29,894 bases of DNA. Source: a virus. The stretch is taken from positions 1 through 29,894 of IMG/VR virus record IMGVR_UViG_3300033571_000137; one strand, given 5' to 3'. The notes below the pieces were generated by a model. The model was not told where the DNA came from. It did not search any database and saw nothing but the letters and a program-made list of their open reading frames with translations. The position numbers were made by a program, and so were the translations under genes. Position 1 is the first letter of the stretch, and each line of letters begins with the position of its first letter. Positions 2,791 through 28,907 of this stretch are shown here, in pieces.

Positions 2791-3246
2791 ATGAACCGAC
2801 TACCACCAGAATTGCATTTAGTACACGGCACTAAGTCCGCGCATAAAGGCGGTGCTTTGCCTGAAACTGTAAGGCTCAGAGTTCCAAAGGCCGATTGGCT
2901 TGATAACCCTGACGCATGGGACAGGGATGCTTTTATTAAAGAAACGTCAGACTTTTTATGGGAAACCTACGGGATTGGTTCAGACCAAGACAAGCACGTT
3001 CTTGCTGCCCTGGCTAACCAGATGGAAATTTACATCAAGTGCATGAAGGGCGTGGAAAAGGGCGGTATCATTACTAAGTTTAATAATGGCGCTACCGTTG
3101 GCCCTAACCCTTTCCTGACCGCTGGCGACAAAGCATTGAGCCGAGCAATCGTTTTGATGAACGAATTGGGGCTAACGCCAAGGGGTCGTTTGGCTACCAA
3201 TAAACAAGAAGGCGGCAAATATGCCAAGCTGCTTAACGGGCCATGA
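2791..3246 (+). CDS. terS: terminase small subunit, P27 family
   Basis: This is a 151-residue DNA-recognition subunit of the packaging motor. The central part (WDRDAFIKETSDFLWETYGI...DKHVLAALANQMEIY) and the end (NPFLTAGDKALSRAIVLMNELGLTPRGR) follow the P27/Terminase_4 pattern, where a final 'lGltP.sR' helix precedes a flexible tail. It is directly upstream of the large terminase, with a 4-base ATGA overlap. The ATG at 2791 is the first start after the intergenic region; its Shine-Dalgarno is poor. The length is usual for the family. Confidence 0.87.
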   Translation: MNRLPPELHLVHGTKSAHKGGALPETVRLRVPKADWLDNPDAWDRDAFIKETSDFLWETYGIGSDQDKHVLAALANQMEIYIKCMKGVEKGGIITKFNNGATVGPNPFLTAGDKALSRAIVLMNELGLTPRGRLATNKQEGGKYAKLLNGP

Positions 3247-4904
3247 CCTATGAAGATGGCATCCTGTATGCCGTATCGGTGGTTAAAGGTGAGATTGTTG
3301 TTTGCCAAAATGTCCGTTTAGCCTGTCAGCGATTCCTTAACCAACTAGAAGACAGGGCATGGGCGTGGGAATTTCACGTTAAATACGTTGAGCATTTCCT
3401 AGAATTTGCCAGTACGCTAAAACACACCAAAGGCCCAGATGCGGGAAAGCCGCTAGTCTTACAGCCTTTCCAAATATTTGCTATCTGCGCTATTTACGGC
3501 TTTAGAAGTAAAAAAGACTTGTCTAAGCGGATGGTGTCGGATGTGATTATTTTCATTCCGCGCAAGGCAGGAAAGTCAACTCTGATTGCCGCTATTGGCC
3601 TTTATGAGTTGGTCTTTGGTGAAGCAGGTGCGGAAGTCTACACACTGGCGACAAACCGAGACCAGGCTTCAATTGTGTTTAACGCTGCGTCTGGCTTTGT
3701 GGAAGCTATGCCACATGACGTTGCGGCTATGTATAACGTACAACGCAAACAGATTACTAAGTCTGGTGACGCACAAACAAAATTCGCGGCTTTGTCTAGA
3801 GACACTAAAAAGTCTGGTGACGGTATGAACCCGTCCTGCGCCATTATTGACGAAGCGGCACAAATTGTAGACCGCAACGCAATTGAAGTTATTTTTTCAG
3901 GTATGGTTGCCCGTCAAAACCCACTGCGGATATACATTACAACAGCGTCATTTACTAAGGAAACAAAGTTCTATGAGGACATGATGCTGATGGAATCTAT
4001 CCTCAAAGGCGATGCAGATGACAACCCTAGATGGTTTGGGCTTATGTATGGCCTAGACCCGCAAGATGATTGGCGCAACCCTTCCACTTGGGCTAAAGCC
4101 AATCCGATGCATGGCATTTCAGTTTATGAAGACGCTATTGCACAACGCGCAGAGGAAGCCAAACATAAACCAGCCGCGCTAAATGAATTTTTATGTAAAA
4201 CACTAAATATCTATGTAAGTGCCAATTCAGCATGGGTTGACCGAGCATATTGGGATGATGAAAAATGCGCGATAGTTACAGAACGTGAACCAGAAGCAGT
4301 ATTTATTGGGTTTGACTTAGCCGCAACGCGAGATTTAAACGCAGTTTGTACGCTAAAACGATTTGCTGATGATGACTATGAAGCTGAATTTAAGTTCTTC
4401 TTGCCTGAAGACGGATATGGGCTAATCCCCAAACATTACGGCGATATATTCCGTGTGGCTAGGCAGTCTGGAATCCTTCATGTGACCGAAGGCAATGTCA
4501 TGGATGACCGCGAGATCAGCGACTACATCATTGCCCAATGCGCCAAGTACGATGTTAAAGAGGTAGGCTTTGACGCTTATAACGCTGCCAGCTTGGTGGC
4601 AAGATTGCACGAATCAGGAATTCCTGTTAAAAAAGTCGGTCAGGGCATGGCGGTTTTAAGTAACCCAAGCAAGCACGTTGAAAAACTAATCATGAACTAC
4701 GGCGTTAAACATGATGGCAACCCGTTTGTGGGCTGGCAGCTTGGTAACTGTGAAGTTTATGAAGATGTCAACGGAAACGTAAAGGTTCGTAAAAATGAAG
4801 CTGACAAATCTGCCAAAGTTGATGGCATAATCAGTTTAATCATTGCAATGCACTGTTCATTGGATAACCCTACAATATCGGGGTTTGGATTCAGAACCTT
4901 TTAA
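3243..4904 (+). CDS. terL: terminase large subunit (ATPase/nuclease)
   Basis: This is the 553-residue packaging motor that translocates DNA into the prohead and cuts concatemers. The N-terminal ATPase carries a Walker A-like PRKAGKST at 106-113 and Walker B with catalytic carboxylate (CAIIDE, 199-204). An ITTAS coupling-type motif is near 232-236. The C-terminal RNase H-like nuclease has acidic residues at D358 (GFDLA), D444 (GFDAY) and D527 (KVDGI). The domain order and motifs match Terminase_1 (HK97 gp2/YmfN type). All catalytic residues appear intact. It starts on the ATGA overlapping the terS stop and is followed by the portal gene after 9 bases. Confidence 0.95.
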   Translation: MTYEDGILYAVSVVKGEIVVCQNVRLACQRFLNQLEDRAWAWEFHVKYVEHFLEFASTLKHTKGPDAGKPLVLQPFQIFAICAIYGFRSKKDLSKRMVSDVIIFIPRKAGKSTLIAAIGLYELVFGEAGAEVYTLATNRDQASIVFNAASGFVEAMPHDVAAMYNVQRKQITKSGDAQTKFAALSRDTKKSGDGMNPSCAIIDEAAQIVDRNAIEVIFSGMVARQNPLRIYITTASFTKETKFYEDMMLMESILKGDADDNPRWFGLMYGLDPQDDWRNPSTWAKANPMHGISVYEDAIAQRAEEAKHKPAALNEFLCKTLNIYVSANSAWVDRAYWDDEKCAIVTEREPEAVFIGFDLAATRDLNAVCTLKRFADDDYEAEFKFFLPEDGYGLIPKHYGDIFRVARQSGILHVTEGNVMDDREISDYIIAQCAKYDVKEVGFDAYNAASLVARLHESGIPVKKVGQGMAVLSNPSKHVEKLIMNYGVKHDGNPFVGWQLGNCEVYEDVNGNVKVRKNEADKSAKVDGIISLIIAMHCSLDNPTISGFGFRTF

Positions 4905-4913
4905 GGGGAAATC

Positions 4914-6308
4914 ATGGGAATGTTTGACATATTCAAAAGAAAAGACAAGGTTTCCAAAGAATCAAACACTCTTTTTGGTCAAACCGCGCTTGGTAACAAC
5001 ATTGTTTATCAAGGAAATAACGCTAGACCGACAGTAAATACGCAGATTCTGTACGTCACAACTTCTAGCACCACAGAGGCTGGAAGGCCAGTAGACACAT
5101 CCCTATTAACCCGAAACAGCACCGTTATGTCTTGCGTAGCGGTCAAAGCTAGAGCCTTAGCGCAGTTGCCAATCAAAATCATGGCTTGCAACGACTCTGG
5201 CGAGTATGTAAATGCGCTGACTGATGAAACTGTGGGCGCAAGAGACAAGATTAAAGCCAAACAGGTCTATTCACTACTAACAAACCCTAATAACTTCCAA
5301 AGCAGTTATGAGTTTTGGTATCAGTGGATGATGTGGCATGAATTGCTTGGTGAAGCGTTTACTTTGTGGTGGAGAAAGAATCAAGACGATTCAACACAAA
5401 CACCGCTAGAAATGTATGAGATGGATAGTACCTTAATTGCTGTACAAATAACGCCTACACGTTATCCTTCCTATCGGTTGTCTACACCTTCCTACGGTTT
5501 CAATAAAGATGACCCGTTAGCACCGCACCAAATCATGCACGTTAAAGATATGGCGTGGCAAGGTTCTGCTGGTTTTAACAAAGGCATCTTGGCGGCTGAA
5601 TTAGTTGGCTTAGATCAAGATATTGACCTTTATGCCAACTTTGTAATGCTCAATGGCGCAAAACCAAGTGGTATGTTCATTACGGATAACGTAATTCCTG
5701 ATGGCAAATACAAAGAGATCGCAGCGCGTCTAAAAGAAGCGTGGACAAGCATGACAGGCAGTCAGCAGACCGACCCAAGCAAGCCAGGCCAAGGTATGTT
5801 GTTAGACCAAGGCATGAAGTACGAGCCACTAAAGATGCTTACCTTGCAAGACGCTGATTTGGCTAACCTTAAAAAGCAAACCATGAAACGTATTTGCGGT
5901 TTGTATGGCGTACCGCCAGCAATGTTGCATATTGACGATCAAAAATACAACAACACCCAAACCATGATGGATGAATTCTATAAATCCACTATGTACCCGA
6001 TTGTTGTGAACCTTCAGCAAAAATTGAAGCAGTCTTTGTTTAAAGGCTACCCAAATTTATGTATAGAATTTGATGTACAAGATTTCCTAAAAGGCGCACC
6101 ATTAGACCAGATGAATTATGTGGTGGCTGGTGTAAATGCAGGAATCATGACCCCTAATGAGGCGCGTGAGTATCTTGGAAAGTCAAATATTGACGGTGCG
6201 GATGAGTTAATGACCAAGAAATCAGATGGCCCAATTGCAGGTACTAGCCCACAAGATACTGGAGGCGGTGGCGGCAATCAAACCAAAAAAATGAACATTG
6301 GTAAATAA
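4914..6308 (+). CDS. portal protein, HK97 family
   Basis: This 464-residue protein forms the dodecameric ring at the portal vertex through which DNA enters and to which connectors bind. Family marks include the early 'SCVAVKARALAQLPIKI' stretch, the W-rich central part (FWYQWMMWHELLGEAF), MHVKDM, and the late MKRICGLYGVPPAMLH and NAREYLGK helices. The C-terminal tail is Gly/Asn/Lys-rich and probably disordered. A good purine-rich ribosome site (AAGGGGAA) lies just before the ATG. It is positioned between terminase and protease as in HK97-type phages. Confidence 0.93.
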   Translation: MGMFDIFKRKDKVSKESNTLFGQTALGNNIVYQGNNARPTVNTQILYVTTSSTTEAGRPVDTSLLTRNSTVMSCVAVKARALAQLPIKIMACNDSGEYVNALTDETVGARDKIKAKQVYSLLTNPNNFQSSYEFWYQWMMWHELLGEAFTLWWRKNQDDSTQTPLEMYEMDSTLIAVQITPTRYPSYRLSTPSYGFNKDDPLAPHQIMHVKDMAWQGSAGFNKGILAAELVGLDQDIDLYANFVMLNGAKPSGMFITDNVIPDGKYKEIAARLKEAWTSMTGSQQTDPSKPGQGMLLDQGMKYEPLKMLTLQDADLANLKKQTMKRICGLYGVPPAMLHIDDQKYNNTQTMMDEFYKSTMYPIVVNLQQKLKQSLFKGYPNLCIEFDVQDFLKGAPLDQMNYVVAGVNAGIMTPNEAREYLGKSNIDGADELMTKKSDGPIAGTSPQDTGGGGGNQTKKMNIGK

Positions 6309-6310
6309 AA

Positions 6311-6517
6311 ATGTCCGTTAGTTTTGATTTAATGGTAGCATTGCTCACTAAATACAAGGCAAAATCTGTCCCCAAGCGCGGCAGACCATTGACTACAATA
6401 AAAGACATAGATCGTTCTAAAGTCGATGAGGTAATCCATGACGCAAAACTTGATGATGGTATGCGAAGCAAAATTGGTTCTGGAGAACCAAGGCAACGAG
6501 CCAACAGGCAAAATTGA
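6311..6517 (+). CDS. small basic hypothetical protein between portal and protease
   Basis: This 68-residue open frame starts two bases after the portal stop and runs 80 bases into the protease gene in another frame. It is basic (KYKAKSVPKRGRPL, then a charged RSKVDEVIHDAKLDDG helix) and contains an AT-hook-like RGRP. Without it, 6309-6437 would be an unusual 129-base hole in a tightly packed operon. That supports it, but the long overlap and weak ribosome site argue for caution. I do not recognise a family. It might be a short head-assembly protein or a remnant of a longer protease N-terminus. Confidence 0.45.
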   Translation: MSVSFDLMVALLTKYKAKSVPKRGRPLTTIKDIDRSKVDEVIHDAKLDDGMRSKIGSGEPRQRANRQN

Positions 6518-7214
6518 AGCTGTTGTAACTACTTGGGGTGCGCGTGAAGGCGCAGACGGTAGACGCTTTAATTATCAGCCTGAAGCCTTTATGGATTGGG
6601 CAGAAGCCTTTACTAAAGAAGGCCGACCACTTCCAATGTTTGTAAACCATGATGCAGACGCTATTCCTGTTGGCGAATGGACTGCATTTGAGTTTGACGA
6701 TAAAGGTATGTCCGCACAAGGACGTATCTACATGAATACAACAAGTGGCAAAGACTTGTATCAAGTTATGCGCGAATCGCCCAATATGTTTGGCGGCGTT
6801 TCTGTTGGCGCATACGCTGAAGAATACATGATGGTTGACGCAGATGGCGAACCAGACCAAAGCGATGAGGCATATTTCCAAATCACAAAAGGTGGTTTGC
6901 GCGAAGTGTCGGTCGTGATGTACCCAAATAACCCAGAGGCAGGTGTTCAGAAGCTGGAGTTTTTCCGCGCTGATGGCACTGCTGATTTAAAAGTTTTGGA
7001 ACGGGCGTTGCGCGATGCAAACCTGTCTAAAAAAGATGCGGTCACAGCCGCATCTATCTTCAAGAAAGTAATGGAACAGCGTGAAGCCCCTGCACCTATT
7101 GAAAATGCGCCCCAACTGAGCGACTCAGATGTGGATGTGACCGAAAGCGAGATTCTTAAAGCCTTGAATGAGCGCGAGATTCTCAAAACTCTTAATTCCC
7201 GACTGAAAGGTTAA
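6438..7214 (+). CDS. prohead protease, HK97 (U35) type
   Basis: This 258-residue maturation protease is expected to remove the delta scaffold of the capsid protein. The core is 'GKIEAVVTTWG..EG.DGRRF', with catalytic His in FVNHD (H71) and nucleophile Ser in GGVSVGA (S122), followed by GLREVSVVMYPNNPEA, the conserved strand after the active site. The C-terminal extension is charged and ends in a near-repeat EILKALN/EILKTLN, perhaps a coiled coil that contacts the capsid protein. The ATG at 6438 is preferred because GAGGT lies 5 bases upstream. The gene precedes the capsid gene by two bases. Confidence 0.9.
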   Translation: MTQNLMMVCEAKLVLENQGNEPTGKIEAVVTTWGAREGADGRRFNYQPEAFMDWAEAFTKEGRPLPMFVNHDADAIPVGEWTAFEFDDKGMSAQGRIYMNTTSGKDLYQVMRESPNMFGGVSVGAYAEEYMMVDADGEPDQSDEAYFQITKGGLREVSVVMYPNNPEAGVQKLEFFRADGTADLKVLERALRDANLSKKDAVTAASIFKKVMEQREAPAPIENAPQLSDSDVDVTESEILKALNEREILKTLNSRLKG

Positions 7215-7216
7215 TC

Positions 7217-8563
7217 ATGTCAAAAGAAATCATTGAAAAACTGGACGCAATCGAAGCAACCAATGTTGCCAAGATTGAAGAAGTTACTAGCCAAACTCAA
7301 GCCGCTATCGAAGCCGCTAAAGCCGAGTTTGACGAAAAAGTGTCTGCATTGGAAGCTAAAGTTGCTTCTGTGCAAGCCCCCGCAATCATCAAAATCGCTA
7401 AAACAGTTCGCAGCGATGTGAACCGTTCTGTTAAAGAGCAACTGACTCAGTTCTACAAAGCCAACAACCGTGTGGAAAAAGAATTGAAGATGTTTGCCGA
7501 TGACAGCCAATATGATGCTTACTTGAAAGAAGCCTCTGCATTGACCGCTGGCGGTGATGGCAAAGGTGGTCGTACAGCGTATGACCCTACCTTTGTTGCT
7601 TTGCGTTTGGCTAACCCTATGCGCGGCATTTCTCGCACTGTGGCTACCGATGGTTCTAGCTATCAATTCCGTGTCAAAACTGGCAATGCTGGTGCTGCAT
7701 GGGGCTATAGCATCCAGAACAACGGTGCAACCACTACTGAAGACACAACAATTTGGCAATTGGTTTTGCAAGACTTGAACGTACAATTCCCAATCCGTAC
7801 TGCGGCATTGGACGATATTGACGGTCTGGAAGCAAACGTGGTTGACGATATGTTGGTTGAGTTTGCACAATCCGAAGCCCTGTCGATGATTCAAAACAAC
7901 GACCAAGCTGCACAATCTGCTGGCAACCCTTACGGCGGCACTAACGGCTTGCGCGGTCTTGACCAATACGCAGGTGCTAACAGCACTTACACTGGCGGTA
8001 CATCTTCCACAGCGGCATTTGGCACAACTGGCACTGGTTCCTCAAGCGGTTTGCACAGCTTGGCTACTTATGACCAATTGACTTCTAACGTCAACACTGT
8101 GGGCGCTAACGCAATCACATACAAAGACGTTATCAACACAATCTACGCCTTGCCACAACAATATTGGACTCCTAACACCAAATTCATGGTGAACCCAATC
8201 TTGGCACAAGCAATCCGTGGTCTGCAAGATACCAACGGTCGTCCAATCTTCAACTCTGTTGAATCATTGAACCCCGATGGCATCATTGGTCAGATGTTGG
8301 GCTTTGACGTTGTGATGAACAAGTATTTGGACAACCCATCGCAAGCTACAGTCGGTGCTGCTGGCACAACCAGCCTGTACCCAATGTATTTTGCTGATTG
8401 GTCGCGTTTCCACACAATCGTTGATCGTTTGAACATGGTTATGCGCCGTTACGACCAGACATTGCCAGGCTACATCACCTTCTTCGGTGAGAAGCGTTTG
8501 GCTACATCTGTGCGTGACCCTAACGCTGGTGTGCGCTACCGAAGCACAGGCACAGCAAACTAA
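7217..8563 (+). CDS. major capsid protein 1, HK97 fold, with delta domain
   Basis: This 448-residue shell protein begins with a charged, coiled-coil delta-like scaffold (about 1-104, rich in K/E/A). The HK97 core starts near EASALT (105-110) and continues with GGRT, LRLANPMR, a TGNA strand, QFPIRTAALDD, a spine helix (EFAQSEALSMIQNNDQA), GGTNGLRGL, ADWSRF near the end and EKRLATSVRDPNAG. A protease site just before the core (YLK/EAS) would mimic HK97 cleavage after a Lys; this is inference. The codon choice looks uniform and suited to high expression. A strong intrinsic terminator lies 10 bases after its stop. A paralogue follows at 9149-10177. Confidence 0.93.
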   Translation: MSKEIIEKLDAIEATNVAKIEEVTSQTQAAIEAAKAEFDEKVSALEAKVASVQAPAIIKIAKTVRSDVNRSVKEQLTQFYKANNRVEKELKMFADDSQYDAYLKEASALTAGGDGKGGRTAYDPTFVALRLANPMRGISRTVATDGSSYQFRVKTGNAGAAWGYSIQNNGATTTEDTTIWQLVLQDLNVQFPIRTAALDDIDGLEANVVDDMLVEFAQSEALSMIQNNDQAAQSAGNPYGGTNGLRGLDQYAGANSTYTGGTSSTAAFGTTGTGSSSGLHSLATYDQLTSNVNTVGANAITYKDVINTIYALPQQYWTPNTKFMVNPILAQAIRGLQDTNGRPIFNSVESLNPDGIIGQMLGFDVVMNKYLDNPSQATVGAAGTTSLYPMYFADWSRFHTIVDRLNMVMRRYDQTLPGYITFFGEKRLATSVRDPNAGVRYRSTGTAN

Positions 8564-8573
8564 AAATTGCCTT

Positions 8574-8605
8574 AAGGTGGGGGGAGAAATCCTCTCACCT
8601 TTTTT
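8574..8605 (+). terminator. strong rho-independent terminator after capsid gene 1
   Basis: A 12-bp stem runs from 8574-8585 to 8590-8601, with two G-U pairs (8580/8595 and 8582/8593), and encloses a GAAA tetraloop at 8586-8589. The 3' arm runs into a T tract (8600-8605). A GNRA loop plus a T tract is the classical intrinsic terminator design. It separates the highly expressed first capsid gene from the endonuclease ATG only 4 bases further on. Confidence 0.88.
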
Positions 8606-8609
8606 CAAG

Positions 8610-9152
8610 ATGTTTTATACATACATTCATTTTCGTAAAGATTCTGGAGTACCTTTTTATATAGGAAAAGGTCAAAATAATCGTCTTTTTACGAAAACGA
8701 AAAGAAATACATATTGGAAAAATATTGTAAAAAAACATGGATTTAATGCTGAAATTTGCAGTAATTGGAAAACAGAACATGAAGCGTTAGAGCATGAAAA
8801 ATTTTTAATTGCTTGTTTTAAGGATATTGGAATACCATTGGTAAACATGACAGATGGCGGTGAAGGAACATCTGGTTGGATTCCAAGTGAAGAATGGAGA
8901 AAGAAAAAAAGCAAATCACAAAAAGAAAATTTTGTGAATCCAATGTTGAATGAAAAAAGTAAAATTAAACAAATAAATTCAAGATTAGGAAAATCACATT
9001 CTGAACAACATAAGATAAATATTGGTAAAGCAAGTCTCGGAAACAAAAGTAGAACAGGCTTAAAAAATTCAGTTGCATCTAATTTAAAAAGAGCAATTAC
9101 CATGAAAGCAATTTGGGAAGCTAAAAAATTGTCCACCAAGGAAAAACCATGA
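8610..9152 (+). CDS. free-standing GIY-YIG homing endonuclease with NUMOD3 repeats
   Basis: This 180-residue protein opens with YTYIHF and FYIGKG, the two strands of the GIY-YIG nuclease, with R25, E63 (LEHEKFLI) and N79 (VNMTDGGEG) in the positions of the family's catalytic and structural residues. From about residue 90 there are NUMOD3-like DNA-binding repeats (SEEWRKKKSKSQ, GKSHSEQHKINIGKASLG). The gene is clearly more AT-rich than both neighbours, a sign of foreign origin. The ATG at 8610 is chosen because longer versions would read through the terminator and the capsid gene. There is no visible Shine-Dalgarno, and the start lies right after the terminator hairpin, so expression is probably low. 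Its stop overlaps the ATG of the second capsid gene. Confidence 0.88.
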   Translation: MFYTYIHFRKDSGVPFYIGKGQNNRLFTKTKRNTYWKNIVKKHGFNAEICSNWKTEHEALEHEKFLIACFKDIGIPLVNMTDGGEGTSGWIPSEEWRKKKSKSQKENFVNPMLNEKSKIKQINSRLGKSHSEQHKINIGKASLGNKSRTGLKNSVASNLKRAITMKAIWEAKKLSTKEKP

Positions 9153-10177
9153 CCATCACCGAAAACATCCTCACAGGCATTAAGCAAACACTAGAGACAG
9201 GCGATCAAGTCAAAATTGACTTACGCGAAGCGTCTGCAATCACAGGCTCTGGTAATGGGGTTGGTGGTCGCACTTATTTTGATGATGCATTTGCCGCTTT
9301 GCGTATTGCTAACCCAATTCGCAAATTTGCAAGGGTAATCCCTGCATCTGGTTCAAGCGTTCAGTTTGTAGCTAAGACGGGTAATGCCGCAAGCCCAACT
9401 AATCCTTGGACATACACTTTTACGCCTAACACTGGCTCGCCAGATACCGACACAAGCATTTGGCAGTTGCCAACTCGCGTGATCACGGCTCAATTGCCAA
9501 TCCGATCAGCGGTAATGTCTGATGTGAACTATTTGAACGAAACAATCGTAGAAGATTTGGCTATGGAATTTGCGTCTATTGAAGGCGCATCAATGGTTTT
9601 AAACAACGATCAAGCTGGTTCTGTAACCACTACAACAGGCGGTACAAACGGCTTGCGTGGCTTGAATTTCTACACAAGCGCGGCGGCTTCTGCTTATGGC
9701 ACAAGCGGCAACGCAATTACTGATGGCATACACTCAATTGCTACAGTGACACAAGGCGCGGCGGCTATTACGTATTCCGACCTTACTGACATGGCGCGTC
9801 TGTTCCCGCCACAGTATTGGAATTCGCCAAATGTGGCTTGGATGATGCACCCACAGACAATTCACAATTTGCGTAACCTTGGCGGCGCTGCTGTCATTAA
9901 ACAATTTGCTGAAGTTGGCGATGGCGATGGCGGTGCAGTCACGCATATGTTTGGATTCCCTGTTATTCCTAACTCCAACATAAGTTTGGTAGGTGCAGGT
10001 AATTTCAGCGTCTACTTGGCAGACTGGTCGCGCTTTATGACGATTGCCGATGTGGAAGAAATCACCGTTCAGGCAATGGAACAAACAACGCCTGGCTTTG
10101 TAACTTTATATGCTGAGAAGCGTTTAGTGTCAACTGTTCGTGACCCGTTTGCTGGTATTCGTTTAGTCGGGGTTTAA
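9149..10177 (+). CDS. major capsid protein 2, HK97 fold, no delta domain
   Basis: This 342-residue paralogue of the first capsid protein shares EASA(L/I)T, GGRT, LR.ANP.R, TGNA, PIR.A, E.A...NNDQA, GGTNGLRGL, AITY.D, QYW, GF.V, ADWSRF.TI and EKRL...VRDP.AG in the same order. It begins only 26 residues before the common core, whereas protein 1 has 104, so it lacks the delta scaffold. It resembles an already mature subunit and might form pentons, as T4 gp24 does beside gp23, or minor shell positions. A good ribosome site (AAGGA) precedes the ATG, which overlaps the endonuclease stop. No inactivating lesions are seen. Divergence is substantial, so the duplication is not recent. Confidence 0.92.
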   Translation: MTITENILTGIKQTLETGDQVKIDLREASAITGSGNGVGGRTYFDDAFAALRIANPIRKFARVIPASGSSVQFVAKTGNAASPTNPWTYTFTPNTGSPDTDTSIWQLPTRVITAQLPIRSAVMSDVNYLNETIVEDLAMEFASIEGASMVLNNDQAGSVTTTTGGTNGLRGLNFYTSAAASAYGTSGNAITDGIHSIATVTQGAAAITYSDLTDMARLFPPQYWNSPNVAWMMHPQTIHNLRNLGGAAVIKQFAEVGDGDGGAVTHMFGFPVIPNSNISLVGAGNFSVYLADWSRFMTIADVEEITVQAMEQTTPGFVTLYAEKRLVSTVRDPFAGIRLVGV

Positions 10178-10179
10178 TC

Positions 10180-10848
10180 ATGCCTGTTGACGCAATAGGC
10201 TACTTGAACTACGGAGCGCCTTCGCGCAATCCGTTTAACTACGCAAAGTTTGAACAGATTTCGCGTGATTCGGCAACGCCTTGGTTGACGATGGCAGAGA
10301 TAACTAACCAGTTAAACCTGTTTGACGATACCAGCCAAGACGATTACCTTTATGGCCTTGAATTGGCGACTAGACAAGCAATTGAGGATTACCTTGGGTT
10401 ATCTATCTTCCCTACCTCGTATCGCGTTTGGTACAACTCTGCCAGCTTGTATGGCGTTCCACTAACTCTGGATTTGCCAGAAGTTAGCCAGAACTTTAAC
10501 CCTACGCAAGCAGGTGTGACGATCAATGCGGTTAAGTATTGGACGCAAGGCACAATCCCTGTGCTGACAACGGTTTCTGCAAGCACTTACTATTACGACC
10601 CATCGGGTAATAAAGTAGTGTTGCAAACGCTGCCCACAGACTTAAATTCAAGCATGACAAGCCCTGTGTATTGTGAATACACAACGGCGGCAAACCCAAT
10701 CTCTAACTACCCTGTGGTCAAGCAAGCGGCATTGTTGTTATTGACGCATCTATACAACAACCGTAGCGAGACAACGGATAACCAGTTAAAGAGCATTCCG
10801 TTTGGCGTTTCTACTTTGCTTCGCCCGTACAAACCATTGGTGATGTAA
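10180..10848 (+). CDS. head-tail connector, gp6-like
   Basis: This 222-residue adaptor binds beneath the portal. The start of the core (TMAEITNQLNLFDDTSQDDYLYGLELATRQAIEDYLGLSIFPTSY) is the helical gp6-like connector signature, in which a DNA packaging/adaptor motif 'l..K.hL...d..D..l..li.aA...ie.yl' is followed by a beta-rich insertion. The C-terminal helix (VVKQAALLLLTHLYNNRSET) and the final PFGVSTLLRPYK are typical of the family's end. It follows the second capsid gene by two bases and is followed immediately by the head-closure gene. Confidence 0.88.
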   Translation: MPVDAIGYLNYGAPSRNPFNYAKFEQISRDSATPWLTMAEITNQLNLFDDTSQDDYLYGLELATRQAIEDYLGLSIFPTSYRVWYNSASLYGVPLTLDLPEVSQNFNPTQAGVTINAVKYWTQGTIPVLTTVSASTYYYDPSGNKVVLQTLPTDLNSSMTSPVYCEYTTAANPISNYPVVKQAALLLLTHLYNNRSETTDNQLKSIPFGVSTLLRPYKPLVM

Positions 10849-11644: not shown

Positions 11645-12139
11645 ATGGCATTACCTACCAAAATCTTACCAGGCTTTTCAGCAACGCTGTACGCACAACC
11701 GTCAGCGACCCCAACGCCATTGACCGTTGCTAACCTTTCTGTTTACGCAAGCGTAAGCGCATTGGCTATCTCTGGCAACTTAGTGCCTGTAGAAGCAATC
11801 CCTGCATTTGGTCAAGATGATGCTGTTGCTTCTTTCGGTGTTGCTGGTTCGCGTCAGTCTGACAAAATCCCAACACAGTCTGCCCCAACAAGCATGACGA
11901 TCACTGCGGCTTGGAACCCAAGCGACACAGTTTTGTTGTTGTTGCGCGGCGATGCTTACAACGGCACTATTGATCGCACTTTCGTAATCTCTGCTACCGA
12001 TGGCACTGGAATTGTTAACTACGCTTTCAACGGTCGCGTGAGCCAGTGGCAAATCGACAGCCAGCCAGGTGCGGAAGCCAAAGTGACTTTCACAATCCAC
12101 CCTCGCGGCAACCAGTACGGCTGGACTGCAAGCACCTAA
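11645..12139 (+). CDS. major tail (tube) protein
   Basis: This 164-residue protein builds the stacked hexameric rings of the flexible tail tube. It is a beta-rich protein with an N-terminal segment (PTKILPGFSATLYAQ), a middle (SMTITAAWNPSD..LLLLRGD) and a C-terminal (NYAFNGRVSQWQIDSQPGAEAKVTFTIHPRG) typical of lambda gpV-type tube proteins. A good ribosome site, AAGGAAAA, is just upstream, as expected for an abundant protein. It is preceded by the longest gap in the connector region. Confidence 0.83.
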   Translation: MALPTKILPGFSATLYAQPSATPTPLTVANLSVYASVSALAISGNLVPVEAIPAFGQDDAVASFGVAGSRQSDKIPTQSAPTSMTITAAWNPSDTVLLLLRGDAYNGTIDRTFVISATDGTGIVNYAFNGRVSQWQIDSQPGAEAKVTFTIHPRGNQYGWTAST

Positions 12140-16577: not shown

Positions 16578-17179
16578 ACGTAATCACGCCTGTTGATGGA
16601 ACAAATAATATTAGGTTTGCGGACTTTATCCGTATTACTACCCCAAGTGCAACTTATCGTTTTACCACTGCGCCAAACAACATTACGGTTTCTGCTGTAG
16701 ATGCTACTGCTTTTGATGCCGTTGGAGTCTTGATTAAGGTAGGAGAGGCGCAGCGCGACATTAAGAGTACAGCCAATGAAACGTCTGTATCAATGACAGG
16801 AATTGACACGGCAATGTTGGGTTGGGTTCTTGGTCAAAATGTCAAAGGCTCACAGATTGAAATGTGGCATGGTTTTTTTGACACAAACGGGGCGTTGATT
16901 ACAACTGGTGGCTCTGGTGGCCTATATCAGTTTTTTAACGGCTTCATTAATTCATTCTCTATTTCTGAACAATGGATGGAAGAAGTCAGAATGTATGTCG
17001 GCACAATTTCTGTTTCAGCATCATCAATCCAACTGATTCTTCAAAATCGTCAAGCTGGTCGATATACCAATAACAACTCATGGCAGTTTTACAACGGTGG
17101 TGATACTTCAATGAATCGTGTGAGTTTTATTGAAACAATCAATTACCAATTTGGCAAAGGTGCAAATGCGAATTCGTGA
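16574..17179 (+). CDS. minor tail protein, RDIKST-type baseplate protein
   Basis: This 201-residue beta-rich protein has the pattern 'F.RITTP..TYRF', 'QRDIKST.NETSVSMTGID' and, at the end, 'AGR.TN..SWQ..N.GDTSMNRV.FIETINYQFGK'. This pattern recurs in minor tail proteins beside J-like genes of many environmental siphophages. In gene order it corresponds to lambda gpL and probably links distal tail and tip. It overlaps upstream by 4 bases, and its last 14 bases overlap the next ORF. Confidence 0.72.
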   Translation: MNVITPVDGTNNIRFADFIRITTPSATYRFTTAPNNITVSAVDATAFDAVGVLIKVGEAQRDIKSTANETSVSMTGIDTAMLGWVLGQNVKGSQIEMWHGFFDTNGALITTGGSGGLYQFFNGFINSFSISEQWMEEVRMYVGTISVSASSIQLILQNRQAGRYTNNNSWQFYNGGDTSMNRVSFIETINYQFGKGANANS

Positions 17180-17612
17180 CGCATCACCGTTTGACATTCC
17201 AGCTTTACTGGATATGCTTCGGCGCTACAGAAAATTAACGCCATTGCCTTTTTTGGCAGAAGCTGATGATGCCGAGTATGTGACCCGTTTACTGACTGAA
17301 TTAATGGCTGGCAAGGGGTTGGTATTGGTTGCGGAAAATGAAAGCATTGTAGGTATGCTGATAGCCTCAATTGCGCCTAGCATTTGGTCGCCAAAGCACC
17401 TTTTGATGACTGAAATGGCATATTGGGTTGAGCCTGAATCCCGTGGTGGGACTGCTGGTTACAGATTGTTATCAGAATACCAACAGCGTGGCACAGCAAT
17501 GAAAAAAGAAAACAGAATCTCAAATTACTTAATTAGTAAAATGAGCAACAGCCCGAATCTTCAATTCCAGAAGTTCGGATTCGACAAACTAGAAGAATTT
17601 TGGGTGGCCTAA
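17166..17612 (+). CDS. GNAT-family N-acetyltransferase in the tail module
   Basis: This 148-residue protein has GNAT architecture: an N-terminal MRIRDASPFDIPALLDMLRRY strand-helix, 'LVLVAEN.ESIVGMLIA' beta strands, AYWVEPESRGG (acetyl-CoA-binding region, degenerate R-G-G-T-A in place of the Q/RxxGxG/A loop at 93-97) and a closing FGFDKLEEFW. The start is taken at 17166 because AAAGGTG lies 5 bases upstream; an in-frame start at 17130 falls inside the previous gene. Its place between the L-like and J-like genes, where lambda has K and I, suggests a role in modifying a tail or host protein. The substrate is unknown. Confidence 0.82.
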   Translation: MRIRDASPFDIPALLDMLRRYRKLTPLPFLAEADDAEYVTRLLTELMAGKGLVLVAENESIVGMLIASIAPSIWSPKHLLMTEMAYWVEPESRGGTAGYRLLSEYQQRGTAMKKENRISNYLISKMSNSPNLQFQKFGFDKLEEFWVA

Positions 17613-20919: not shown

Positions 20920-21756
20920 ATGACTCAAGCCTTTAACCTTTCGCAGTTAGCGAATAACACCAACACAACTGGTCAGATTAACGCTGATACAGCTATTTAC
21001 AACACGGTTAACGTGGCAAATGGCGGAACAAACCTTTCTGCTACTCCTACTAACGGGCAATTGCCTATTGGTAACGGAACTGGCTATGCTCTAGCAACAC
21101 TTACTGCTGGAACTGGAATTGGCATTACCAACGGTGCTGGAACAATTACTATTACTAATTCATCTGCTGGAGGTGCAAGTGGACAGGCTTTTACTTCATC
21201 TGGCACTTTTACAATTCCCACAAACGTAACTGCATTAAAAGTCACTGTTGTTGGTGGTGGTGGCGGTGGCGGTAGTGGAACAACAAATACTTGCGGACAG
21301 GCTGGAGCTGGCGGTGGTGGCGGAGCCACGCTTATCAAATATTTAACTGGGCTAACTTCCGGCAACACGCTAGCGGTAACTGTTGGCTCTGCTGGTGCTG
21401 GTGGTACTAACGGTGGAACTGGTGGGACGTCTTCTGTTGCATCTGGAACACAGTCCATCACAACATTAACTTGCACTGGGGGTAGCGGCGGCGCTACTAA
21501 TGGGTATGCAACATATGTAGCCGGTGGAACAGCTACAAACGGCGATTTAAATGTGCCAGGGGGCGCTGGTATTCCTACCGGCGGTTTTGGCCAATACGGT
21601 GGTACTTCTGGACTTGGATATGGTGTAGGTGGTTTTGGAGCAACAATAACGTCAAATACAGCACGCGCTGGGTCAGGGTATGGTGGTGGTGGTGGTGGTG
21701 GATGGACTGGGGTTGGCGCGGCTGGTGCTGGTGGTATTGTAATTTTTGAATGGTAA
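20920..21756 (+). CDS. glycine-rich tail fibre / adhesin
   Basis: This 278-residue fibre immediately follows the J-like gene. The first 85 residues carry the common fibre linker 'NGGTNLSATPTNGQLPIGNGTGYALATLTAGTGI'. From about residue 90 the FTSSGTFTIP strand leads to a poly-glycine-rich receptor-binding domain similar to that in short gp38-type adhesins, with runs of 5-8 Gly such as [11 protein letters not shown]. The Gly domain ends with hydrophobic IVIFEW. A (TGG)7 tract at 21681-21701 encodes one Gly run and could vary in length in frame. Binding target unknown. Confidence 0.82.
   Translation: MTQAFNLSQLANNTNTTGQINADTAIYNTVNVANGGTNLSATPTNGQLPIGNGTGYALATLTAGTGIGITNGAGTITITNSSAGGASGQAFTSSGTFTIPTNVTALKVTVVGGGGGGGSGTTNTCGQAGAGGGGGATLIKYLTGLTSGNTLAVTVGSAGAGGTNGGTGGTSSVASGTQSITTLTCTGGSGGATNGYATYVAGGTATNGDLNVPGGAGIPTGGFGQYGGTSGLGYGVGGFGATITSNTARAGSGYGGGGGGGWTGVGAAGAGGIVIFEW
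21681..21701 (+). repeat. (TGG)7 microsatellite in the glycine-rich adhesin
   Basis: Seven perfect TGG units encode a short Gly run near the tip. Slippage would change Gly number without breaking the frame. Confidence 0.75.
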
Positions 21757-22840: not shown

Positions 22841-25174
22841 ATGGCAACACAACTCAGCATCGCAAAAGGCAGTCCTTCTGATGTAAATCTAACTGTCAAT
22901 CAGATTGATGTAACGGTTGGCGGTCAAAACAACATCAATGTTGAAGTAACGCCATTACCAACACAGACAATCAATATTGATAGAAACATCACAGGCCCAA
23001 CAGGGCCAACTGGCCCTACGGGGCCAACTGGTTCTCAAGGTGTAACTGGCCCTACAGGTTCTGTTGGCGCAACTGGCCCTACTGGTGCAATTGGCCCAAC
23101 TGGGGCTGCTAGTACCGTTGCTGGCCCTACTGGACCTACTGGCTCACAAGGTATTCAAGGCGCAACAGGCCCAACAGGTACACAAGGCCCTACGGGGCCA
23201 ACTGGTGCAACTGGTTCTACTGGCCCTACAGGGCCAACAGGCGTTCAAGGTAACACAGGAAACATTGGCCCAACTGGTTCGCAAGGCATCCAAGGTATTC
23301 AAGGCGTACAAGGCATCCAAGGGCCAACTGGCCCAACAGGTAATATTGGCTTAACTGGCGCAACTGGGCCAACTGGAACAACGGGTGCAGTCGGCCCAAC
23401 GGGGCCAACAGGCGCACAAGGTGCAGATGGCAATTCGTCTTCATTTTTCCAATACCAAGCAGACACAACCAAAACAAGCGGAACGCCAAACAGCGGTGAT
23501 GTTTATTGGAACAACGCCACACAGACTTTAGCAACTCAAATTGTTTTTAGCCATCTAACTTCAAACGGCATTGACGTTGACATATTTTTAGGCGCGTTGA
23601 AGGTCAACGACATTATTGTTTTACAAGATGCAAACAATTCTTTGAACTACCAGAAATGGACTGTCAACGGAACGCCGATTATTGTTGATAACGTGTCTGT
23701 GACTTTCCCTGTTGCTTTAACCACATCGGCAGGAACAGGCACAACTGGTTTTGCAAACAACCATCAATTGATCGCTGTATTGCAGACCATTGGTCTTCAA
23801 GGCCCAACAGGGCCTACTGGCGCTACAGGCGCGGCATCTACCGTTGCTGGCCCTACAGGTGCAACAGGTTCAACAGGTGCGACAGGCCCAACAGGTTCAC
23901 AAGGAATCCAAGGCCCAACTGGGCCACAGGGCGTTCAGGGTATTCAGGGCATTCAGGGTGACGTTGGGCCAACTGGCCCTACTGGAAGCATTGGTAGCAC
24001 TGGCGCACAAGGCCCTACGGGGCCAACTGGTGCTGACTCTACGGTAGCTGGCCCGACAGGGCCAACAGGAGCCGCTGGAAGCGTTGGCCCAACTGGGCCT
24101 ACAGGTTTGACAGGCAATACTGGCCCAACTGGGCCTACAGGTGCTGGAAATAATATTGCTGTTCAAGATGAAGGTGTAACACTTTCATCTGCCGTGACCA
24201 GTATTGATTTTACAGGCGCTGGTGTTACAGCAACAGCGATAGGAAGTGCTATTTCTGTTGCTATTGCTGGCGGTGGCGGCGGCAGTAGTGTTGACATTCA
24301 AGAATTTAAAACGGCTGGCACATCTACATGGACAAAACCTTCGGGCGCTAAATTAGTCTATGTTGTTTGCATTGGCGGTGGTGGCGGTGGAGGTTCAGGT
24401 TATCGTCAATCCGTTTCAGATACAAACCCTGCCGTTGGTGGTTGCGGGGCGGGTGGTGGTGGTCGCATTGAAATGTGGCTTCCGGGAGTTTCTTTAGGAG
24501 GCACTGAAACTATTACTATTGGTTCTGGTGGAACTGGTAATGCAGCCCGTACTTCAGATGGAGTACTTGGCACTACAGGTGGAATAGGAACAAGAAGTAG
24601 TTTTGGTAGTTGGGTAAACGCTTATGGCGGTAACGGAGGGTTTAGCGGAACAACCAACTCACAAGGTGGTGGAGCTGTAGGTGGTTCTGGTGCGGCAAAT
24701 AATGCGGTAATGTCTGCTGGTTCTAGCACCCCTGCATGGTTTACTAGTATCGGCGGCAATAATAGTGGTGGTGCAGCAGGAGGCAATGCAGGTGCTGGAG
24801 CCATTGGCCCCGGTGGTGGCGGTGGAGGTGGTGGTTTAGTTTTATTGCCCGTTTCTTCTTTAAATGGAGGCAGTGGAGGTCGAGGGGCTGCTTTAAGTAA
24901 TACAAGTGTCGCTACAACAGGTGGCGGGGGAACTGCTGGAACATCAGGAGGTGGAACAGGTGGTACAGGCGCAAACCAAACAGCAGCCTTTTTAGGGGGT
25001 GCTGGCGGTGGAGGTGGTGGTAGCAACCATAACAACGCAACAGGCGGCACAGGCGGCGCTGGAGGTTATCCCGGAGGCGGTGGCGGTGGTGGCGGCGCAT
25101 CTAAGCCGGGTTTTAACTCAGGCGCTGGCGGCAATGGTGGTAATGGTTATGTTGCTGTTGTTACGTTCTTCTAA
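22841..25174 (+). CDS. collagen-like tail fibre with glycine-rich tip
   Basis: This 777-residue fibre has an N-terminal attachment domain (1-50), a first collagen-like Gly-X-Y rod (about 52-197), a globular beta domain (about 198-320), a second Gly-X-Y rod (321-436), an Ig-like linker ([21 protein letters not shown]), and a glycine-rich C-terminal domain (about 480-777) opening with TSTWTKP and [13 protein letters not shown] triplets dominate the rods. The C-terminus ends in [11 protein letters not shown]. The rods make a trimeric shaft; the tip is expected to contact the host. The tip is related to the domain in the adhesin at 20920-21756. Confidence 0.88.
22994..23431 (+). repeat. collagen-like Gly-X-Y repeat block 1
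   Basis: About 146 codons of Gly-X-Y (mainly GPT, GAT, GIQ) form the first rod of the fibre. At DNA level the unit GGCCCAACAGGG-like recurs with variation, a substrate for recombination-driven length changes. Confidence 0.85.
23801..24148 (+). repeat. collagen-like Gly-X-Y repeat block 2
   Basis: About 116 codons of Gly-X-Y follow the globular domain. The interruption [14 protein letters not shown] recurs three times across both blocks, showing internal block duplication. Confidence 0.82.
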
Positions 25175-25183
25175 AGAGACACT

Positions 25184-25396
25184 ATGCCAAAACAATTCCT
25201 ACTAAACGCAGATGGTTCTATTCCAGCCAACGTAAATGTTGAAGCATTACAAGCCGCTAATATTCCTTTAGTATTGCCTACGCCTATGCCAAGAGAAAGC
25301 GGTATGGTTGCTGTTGAGCAAGAGCCGCAACAGATTGATGGCGTATGGAAACAAGTTTGGACATTAGAGCCTTTTATTGAAAATTCACAAGAATGA
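25184..25396 (+). CDS. small fibre-linked protein, putative tail fibre chaperone
   Basis: This 70-residue protein follows the collagen fibre by 9 bases. Its pattern 'KQFLLNADGSIP.NVNVEALQAANIPLVLPTPMPRE.GMVAVEQEPQQIDGVWKQVWTLEP' recurs after fibre genes in many phages of Proteobacteria and resembles a short fibre assembly or virion-associated protein. Its end overlaps the glycosyltransferase start by 4 bases (ATGA). Confidence 0.65.
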   Translation: MPKQFLLNADGSIPANVNVEALQAANIPLVLPTPMPRESGMVAVEQEPQQIDGVWKQVWTLEPFIENSQE

Positions 25397-26451
25397 AAAT
25401 AGCCGTTTACGCAATCAGTAAGAATGAAGAACAGTTTGTAGAACGGTTCTGTAAGTCAGCCAAAGACGCAGACATTATTTTGATTGCTGACACTGGCTCA
25501 ACAGATAAAACAGCAGAGCTTGCAAAGAAGCATGGCGCTGTTGTCTATCCAATCTGCATCAATCCTTGGCGCTTTGACAAAGCAAGAGACACGGCCCTTG
25601 CGCTTCTACCTGCTGACATTGATGTTTGTATCAGCCTAGACTTAGATGAAGTTCTAGAAGATGGCTGGCGAAAAGAGATTGAGCGCGTCTGGACAGCAGA
25701 AACAACCCGTCTACGATATAAATTTGATTGGGGCTGTGGCATTTCTTTCTTTTACGAGAAGATTCACCACCGCAAGGGTTATCACTGGCATCACCCTGTT
25801 CACGAATACCCAAGGCCAGATGGCAGGACAAACGAAATCTATGCCCACACGGATATGTTTTTGGTCAGCCATCACCCTGACCCAACCAAGTCCCGTGGTC
25901 AATATATGCCGTTACTTGAACTGGCGGTCAAAGAAGACCCTAAATGCCCAAGAAACGCCTTCTATCATGCGCGTGAACTTACCTTTCATTCAAGATGGCA
26001 AGAAGCTATTGACGCGCTAAACAAGTACTTGGCTATGCCAGAAGCTACTTGGGAAAACGAGCGATGCTATGCAATGCGTCTTTTAGGGCAAGCCTATGCT
26101 GAAATAGGCAATAATGATGAATCGTTAAAGTGGCTGCGTAGGGCTACGGCAGAGGCTCCAAACACCCGTGAACCTTGGGTAGACTTGGCAATGGCGGCAT
26201 ACCGCAGGGAAATGTGGCATGAAAGCCTATCCGCTGCAATGACAGCTTTAGAAATTAAAGACAAAACCCTTGTTTACACAATGGAACCAAGCGTGTGGGG
26301 CGCTAAACCTTATGACTTGGCTGCTATTGCGGCTTGGCGCTTAGGCATGAAAGAAATGGCCCGTGTACTTTGTCAAAAAGCAATAGAATTAGAACCCACA
26401 GATTCAAGGCTATTACAAAATTTGGAGTTAATGACAAATGCCAACGATTGA
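25393..26451 (+). CDS. GT2 glycosyltransferase with C-terminal TPR repeats
   Basis: This 352-residue cytosolic protein has an N-terminal GT-A domain with 'YAISKNEEQFVERF', DTGSTDKT (33-40) and the metal-binding DxD in SLDLDEVL (D83, D85), followed by about four TPR-like helix pairs (about 190-345, e.g. WQEAIDALNKYLA, LGQAYAEIGNNDESLKWLRRATAEAPN). This combination is typical of GT2-TPR proteins that transfer a sugar onto a protein or polysaccharide. It sits between fibre and lysis genes, so virion glycosylation or host surface modification are both possible. Its stop overlaps the next small gene. No truncation seen. Confidence 0.87.
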   Translation: MKIAVYAISKNEEQFVERFCKSAKDADIILIADTGSTDKTAELAKKHGAVVYPICINPWRFDKARDTALALLPADIDVCISLDLDEVLEDGWRKEIERVWTAETTRLRYKFDWGCGISFFYEKIHHRKGYHWHHPVHEYPRPDGRTNEIYAHTDMFLVSHHPDPTKSRGQYMPLLELAVKEDPKCPRNAFYHARELTFHSRWQEAIDALNKYLAMPEATWENERCYAMRLLGQAYAEIGNNDESLKWLRRATAEAPNTREPWVDLAMAAYRREMWHESLSAAMTALEIKDKTLVYTMEPSVWGAKPYDLAAIAAWRLGMKEMARVLCQKAIELEPTDSRLLQNLELMTNAND

Positions 26452-28478: not shown

Positions 28479-28907
28479 ATGAAAATTAAGCGCGTAGACA
28501 TTCGCCATTCTCAAATACAGAATGAATTGTCGGTACTTCAAAAGAAGTGCCTTCCTTACGATACGCCTTATGACACTAACTTTGGTCATTGGTGGATAAC
28601 GTATGACTCATTTAATCTTCCGTGTGCTTTTGCAGGTCTTGTTTCTAGTGTGCGCTGGTTTGATACTGGCTATCTGTGTCGCGCAGGTGTGTTACCTAGT
28701 CACCGTGGACAAGGAATACAGAAAAGGCTTATTCGCGCAAGAGTTCGGCAAGCCCGAGCATTAGGTTGGAAATGGTTAATTACCGATACGCATAAAAACC
28801 CTGCATCTTCAAATAGTTTGATCGCTTGCGGTTTTAAATTGTTTGAGCCTTCAAAGCCTTGGGGGGACAAAGAAACCCTGTATTGGCGATTAAACCTAAA
28901 GGATTGA
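28479..28907 (+). CDS. GNAT-family N-acetyltransferase (second copy)
   Basis: This 142-residue enzyme has a clear acetyl-CoA loop, SHRGQGI, residues 74-80 (motif A, R-G-Q-G), following the beta strand CRAGVLP. The end 'NSLIACGFKLF' is motif B-like. The family transfers acetyl from acetyl-CoA to an amine. It is 31 bases after the endolysin, one base before the phosphoesterase gene. It is not closely similar to the GNAT protein in the tail module, so they are separate acquisitions. A substrate cannot be assigned. Confidence 0.86.
   Translation: MKIKRVDIRHSQIQNELSVLQKKCLPYDTPYDTNFGHWWITYDSFNLPCAFAGLVSSVRWFDTGYLCRAGVLPSHRGQGIQKRLIRARVRQARALGWKWLITDTHKNPASSNSLIACGFKLFEPSKPWGDKETLYWRLNLKD

Follow-up and report, generated by a model that had tools for sequence, protein, structure and literature searches.

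The window analysed here, a 29.9 kb phage fragment, carries a head module whose genes run over positions 3243-10848 in the order terminase, portal, S78 protease, MCP1, MCP2 and connector (Table 1). The module has the features of an HK97-type system with a scaffold fused to the capsid protein: MCP1 has a predicted coiled-coil leader, the S78 protease gene adjoins it and no separate scaffold gene was found in the head cluster. Elsewhere in the window, two probable fibre proteins (22841-25174 and 20920-21756) have collagen-like GPTGPT repeats and glycine-rich C-terminal regions, small ORFs in the tail module (17130-17612) and near the window's end (28479-28907) match the GNAT acetyltransferase family, and in the product of 25393-26451 TPR repeats come after a glycosyltransferase family 2 domain.

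Table 1. Features of the head module in the window.
Feature	Position	Strand	Evidence and layout
Terminase large subunit (phrog_9 type)	3243..4904	+	PF20441, PF03354; phrog_9 E 8.9e-133
Portal protein	4914..6308	+	PF04860 E 2.5e-63
Prohead serine protease (S78 family)	6438..7214	+	PF04586 E 6.1e-11
MCP1, major capsid protein, 448 aa	7217..8563	+	PF05065 E 7.1e-26; AF2 best match GTA capsid Z 21.8; N-terminal scaffold (delta) region ~1-105, core 106-448
MCP1 delta-like leader, residues 1-105	7217..7531	+	AF2 secondary structure; conserved [LMIV]-x-E-AS motif
Hairpin + U-run, candidate leaky intrinsic terminator or mRNA end	8574..8605	+	Conserved in relatives, compensatory changes
GIY-YIG-like homing endonuclease (predicted), 180 aa, inserted	8610..9152	+	phrog_314 E 1.5e-17
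MCP2, second HK97-fold capsid protein, 342 aa	9149..10177	+	PF05065 E 1.3e-23; AF2 best match GTA capsid Z 22.6; core 28-342 preceded by a short leader (1-27) with a candidate cut after E27
MCP2 leader, residues 1-27	9149..9229	+	AF2: helix 3-17, strand 21-24
Head-tail connector (gp6-like)	10180..10848	+	PF05135; phrog_40

Both capsid genes have exactly the coordinates and lengths given in the original prediction. MCP1 and MCP2 score 91.7 and 84.3 bits, respectively, against Phage_capsid PF05065 (Pfam cut-off 24.2 bits), placing both in this family, and both match the phrog_10 major head protein. The claim that they are paralogs is borne out by a profile-profile alignment (probability 100, E 1.7e-77 over 319 columns, ~40% identity), and given this E-value their common motifs reflect homology rather than chance. 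AlphaFold2 (AF2) models, built from input alignments that omitted the row from an annotated phage record, are of moderate confidence (pLDDT 71.7 for MCP1 and 73.5 for MCP2). The structure matches of both models are HK97-fold proteins throughout, with the Rhodobacter GTA capsid protein first and the HK97 entries at Z 16-18. An HK97 fold in the 342-residue protein had been set beforehand as a test of the prediction, and the match of the MCP2 model to the GTA capsid (Table 1) answers it. MCP1 and MCP2 are HK97-fold paralogs. The Rhodobacter capsulatus GTA capsid protein Rcc01687 is the closest solved structure for both; it differs in being the one capsid protein of the matched shell entries, and its remote sequence similarity is confined to ~135 C-terminal residues.

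The original prediction described the two genes as a tandem. Both do lie in the head module, but in this phage they are not directly adjacent, an endonuclease ORF that had been overlooked standing between them. This ORF is AT-rich (GC 0.34-0.36), sits 3' of the hairpin that follows MCP1 and has a stop codon that overlaps the MCP2 start (ATGA); the gap between MCP1 and MCP2 is 588 nt in the window versus ~56-80 nt in nearly all relatives. Its product contains a YTYI...FYIGKG motif, typical of GIY-YIG enzymes, and matches the homing endonuclease family phrog_314, while a Pfam search with it returned no match. A related ORF occupies the same gap in a distant relative (L255), and this recurrence suggests repeated homing to the MCP1-MCP2 gap. 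We considered whether MCP1 and MCP2 might be one gene halved by the endonuclease, a reading ruled out by the completeness of each core and by relatives that lack the insertion and carry the same two genes. In five loci (L228, L229, L234, L235 and L238) the gap holds a 107-aa protein (GRGGTxVGVARARDIxNG...) that has no Pfam match and is unrelated to the endonuclease ORF.

The same head gene order, with both MCPs and a hairpin between them, is found in the cultured Methylophilaceae phage P19250A (KX815270), which has no endonuclease between its MCP genes. Its MCP1 and MCP2 are 63% and ~52-54% identical to those of the window, and its terminase homologue is ~32% identical to SfII-type terminases. 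Methylophilales phage Venkman, a reported relative of P19250A, has one annotated capsid protein and a separate scaffold, with no match to the pair. No bacterial prophage relatives were found in a scan of genome contigs with the P19250A MCP1.

To survey the pair in uncultured phages, we scanned IMG/VR with MCP1, MCP2, the P19250A MCP2 and two alignments of divergent members. These scans recovered at least 330 loci with either MCP1 or MCP2, some of which are overlapping pieces of one contig and thus not a count of independent genomes. Exactly one of each gene was present in 312, and the rest lie at contig ends, except for L043, whose MCP2 is split, and L015, a contig with a duplicated end. Every locus that covers both positions holds both genes, and later counts refer to 222 distinct complete MCP1-MCP2 pairs. 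A search for the pair in related phages had been proposed beforehand as a check. In a tree of 78 pairs, the paralogs form two clean clades separated by a bipartition with support 1.0, which points to a single duplication that preceded the radiation of the sampled lineage. Median dN/dS was 0.11 for MCP1 and 0.08 for MCP2, indicating purifying selection on both genes; for MCP2 this had been named beforehand as a test, and the low value rules out a decaying duplicate. The mirror-tree correlation between the two proteins was modest (0.45). As judged from these sequences, the MCP pair is both ancient and obligate in a large, mostly uncultured aquatic phage lineage, and that lineage is larger than what was sampled.

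This universal pairing bears on what MCP2 might be for. Of the three roles first proposed for MCP2, namely a penton protein, a partner in a mixed lattice and a capsid variant kept by gene exchange, the last is contradicted, as the pair separates only at contig ends and the paralogs fall into two clades. A broader form of this idea is that MCP2 builds a second particle type, for example a smaller head, or passes between phages as an exchangeable variant. MCP2 does have its own complete HK97 core, but it lacks a scaffold tower, occurs without MCP1 only at contig ends and is separated from MCP1 by a single bipartition, and we consider such a role very improbable.

The leaders of the two proteins differ in length and in predicted structure. 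In the AF2 model of MCP1, the leader comprises a predicted coiled-coil helix of 49 residues (3-51), a second helix (64-81) and a strand (88-90). In HK97, scaffold residues 2-66 form coiled-coil towers, which are trimeric and stand two per hexon at the portal, and beneath every capsomer residues 76-103 make a helix-turn-strand spoke (PMC10275583); this clamp is also seen in D3 (PMC12749128). Structural alignment pairs residues 2-342 of the MCP2 model with residues 76-382 of HK97 Prohead I (8fqk_D), these ranges giving the first and last residues only. As modelled, the MCP2 leader appears comparable to the helix-strand clamp of HK97 scaffold residues 76-103, with the tower absent. This equivalence to the spoke depends on medium-confidence AF2 models because profile alignment of the MCP1 leader with the MCP2 leader detected no sequence homology. 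The original prediction had assigned a delta region to the first protein only and had the second start about 26 residues before its core. MCP2 indeed lacks the coiled-coil tower and has 27 residues ahead of a site shared with MCP1, but the short leader and its candidate cut site are apparently kept, so that MCP2 is not fully scaffold-free.

That shared site, which the original prediction did not include, is a candidate protease site of the form L/M/I/V-x-E followed by A-S, with the putative cut after E105 in MCP1 and after E27 in MCP2. Glutamate occupies both positions in all 120 of the distinct pairs looked at initially, almost always with L, M, I or V at P3, and in nearly all of them it is followed by A-S. 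In the larger set the universal glutamate was required by the search pattern, and full-length proteins that failed the pattern were inspected by eye; these keep a glutamate with altered neighbours, as in EQAGL (P19250A MCP1) and ETNQL (L156 MCP2). By its sequence, the candidate site resembles the x-x-E motifs of T4-type proteases (PMC5694885), and the S78 protease encoded next to MCP1 is the probable processor of both MCPs. In P19250A (L152, 4600-5988 and 6066-7124), both MCPs read AGLQGSG rather than ASALTGSG after the candidate cut, which hints at a joint change with the protease or at local conversion between the paralogs.

One might also imagine that MCP2 lies outside the shell, its capsid fold having been repurposed for regulation or as a decoy; the protein was deposited as a 'hypothetical protein' in P19250A beside a 'gene transfer agent capsid protein' (MCP1). 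Its conserved prohead-protease-like site, its N-arm and its position among head genes argue against this, and of all the roles considered here we find it the hardest to credit.

A second element missed by the original prediction is a hairpin with a U-run directly after MCP1. Such sites occur in the window at the chance rate (19 found versus 20.2 expected), so that the window's hairpin would by itself be weak evidence, and it is the comparison with relatives that gives it meaning. A hairpin and U-run directly follow MCP1 in 221 of the 222 distinct pairs (median -17.85 kcal/mol); the corresponding counts are 22 of 218 after MCP2 and 7 of 221 before MCP1. In most regions scanned, no other element of this kind is as strong as the MCP1 hairpin. 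RNAalifold recovered nine stem pairs, seven of which show compensatory changes. From these sequence features we infer that the hairpin terminates transcription leakily. Codon usage was also compared. MCP1 (ENC 37.3) is as strongly biased as the likely tail-tube gene at 11645-12139 (37.7), with MCP2 at 48.4 and the connector at 49.5, and MCP1 has the lower ENC, hence the stronger bias, in 191 of the 222 pairs. A point on the other side is that recognisable Shine-Dalgarno sequences are commoner for MCP2 than for MCP1. The hairpin and the codon bias together suggest that MCP1 is probably made in excess and that MCP2 belongs to a lower-expressed downstream group. The hairpin would also lower expression of the downstream connector and tail genes, and would thus mark a high-MCP1 boundary rather than set an MCP2-specific ratio.

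Low dosage would be compatible with MCP2 acting in few copies, in a portal-proximal ring or as an assembly regulator controlling size, instead of at all pentons. In HK97, the towers that surround the portal come from neighbouring hexons (PMC10275583), and a tower-less subunit could mark a special position. However, a missing tower would remove the main contact between scaffold and portal, making MCP2 seem unlikely beside the portal, and we give this role only a slim chance.

The A-loop lines the capsomer axes in the HK97 fold. Using region borders that are approximate, drawn from AF2 secondary structure and the HK97 layout, we found that identity between the paralogs is lowest in this loop (0.21), compared with 0.64 in the N-arm, 0.43 in the E-loop and 0.47 in the spine helix. 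In T4, where gp24 occupies 11 vertices and probably arose by duplication of gp23, mutations that bypass gp24 lie partly in the gp23 A domain (PMC9958956). Taken together, the A-loop divergence and these bypass mutations make five-fold placement of MCP2 the most economical reading. The lack of a tower does not force a penton role because the pentons of HK97 and D3 have scaffold towers too (PMC10275583, PMC12749128).

Other properties of the pair also recall T4. As in gp23/gp24, two HK97-fold paralogs occur together, and the N-terminal propeptide is far shorter in the one that is minor in T4 and probably so here: one protease removes 65 residues from gp23 and only 10 from gp24 (PMC9958956), and the candidate [LMIV]-x-E site, followed by A, would release leaders of 105 residues from MCP1 and 27 from MCP2. 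However, the T4 pair is ~20% identical versus ~40% for MCP1 and MCP2, and the T4 scaffold is a separate core whereas here it is fused to MCP1 in a genome of ~39 kb. In a Pfam search (E <= 0.001), no T4 capsid family was listed for either protein, PF05065 being the only family returned. MCP1 and MCP2 resemble HK97 and GTA capsid proteins, and their duplication is independent of that in T4. The gp5-type systems of HK97 and D3 share the MCP-fused scaffold, the adjoining S78-type protease, similar terminase and portal families (PMC10275583, PMC12749128) and a comparable helix-strand clamp, and the genome size is similar for HK97. They differ in using one MCP for all capsomers, in contrast to the two MCP genes found here, one without a tower.

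The main rival to a penton role, and the second of the roles first proposed, is a mixed lattice, in which hexons, and perhaps pentons too, would contain both proteins, and MCP2, at positions either fixed or variable, would tune shell size or stability. There is precedent in the two-component family 2B encapsulins of Streptomyces lydicus, in which two HK97-fold paralogs co-assemble into variable mixed shells (PMC12407261), although these are cellular compartments of variable composition, and their genes do not belong to a phage head operon that also encodes portal, protease and terminase. MCP2 has also kept the N-arm, the E-loop and a modelled P-domain clamp with which it could contact MCP1. 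Against random mixing, the low-dosage signals and the strong A-loop divergence favour a defined minor site, and a hexon that took up a subunit with no tower would lose the two-trimer arrangement of towers known from HK97. We therefore regard a mixed lattice as rather unlikely, albeit worth keeping in view.

Of the roles proposed, a penton protein is the best supported. With moderate confidence, we favour a reading in which MCP2 is processed and forms a minor part of the shell, most likely as the penton protein, in convergence with T4 gp24. The head would be built from the two paralogs, MCP1 with its fused scaffold forming the bulk of the shell as hexons, and MCP2, made at a lower level behind the leaky terminator, entering the virion as a minor component, most likely at the 11 pentameric vertices. 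Its short helix-strand leader would clamp MCP2 to the growing prohead, contributing no coiled-coil tower, and would then be removed by the same S78 protease. Such an arrangement would be an independent invention of the gp23/gp24 scheme in a ~39 kb phage with an HK97-like head module. Whether a dedicated penton protein evolved here independently from a scaffold-fused MCP by dropping the tower and keeping the clamp and cut site, with the supply ratio set by the conserved leaky terminator, is a fuller scenario that we put forward tentatively, at slightly short of an even chance.

A dedicated minor HK97-fold paralog is a kind of system already known from T4. A full-text search of openly accessible literature turned up no small tailed phage reported to have tandem HK97-type MCP paralogs. 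As far as the literature and collections searched extend, what is new is that such a system occurs independently in a phage whose head module is HK97-like and whose scaffold is fused to the MCP, along with the tower-less minor paralog, the conserved intergenic hairpin and the universality of the pair across a large aquatic lineage. The isolate P19250A has its MCP2 labelled as hypothetical, so that capsid annotation in the group is incomplete. Capsid assembly poses the question of how a single HK97-fold protein comes to occupy either five-fold or six-fold positions, and of the part that a fused scaffold plays at each. A lineage that has apparently split these jobs between paralogs, one with and one without a tower, offers natural separation-of-function alleles, and hundreds of aligned pairs could reveal, for testing, which constraints apply to hexons only and which to pentons only.
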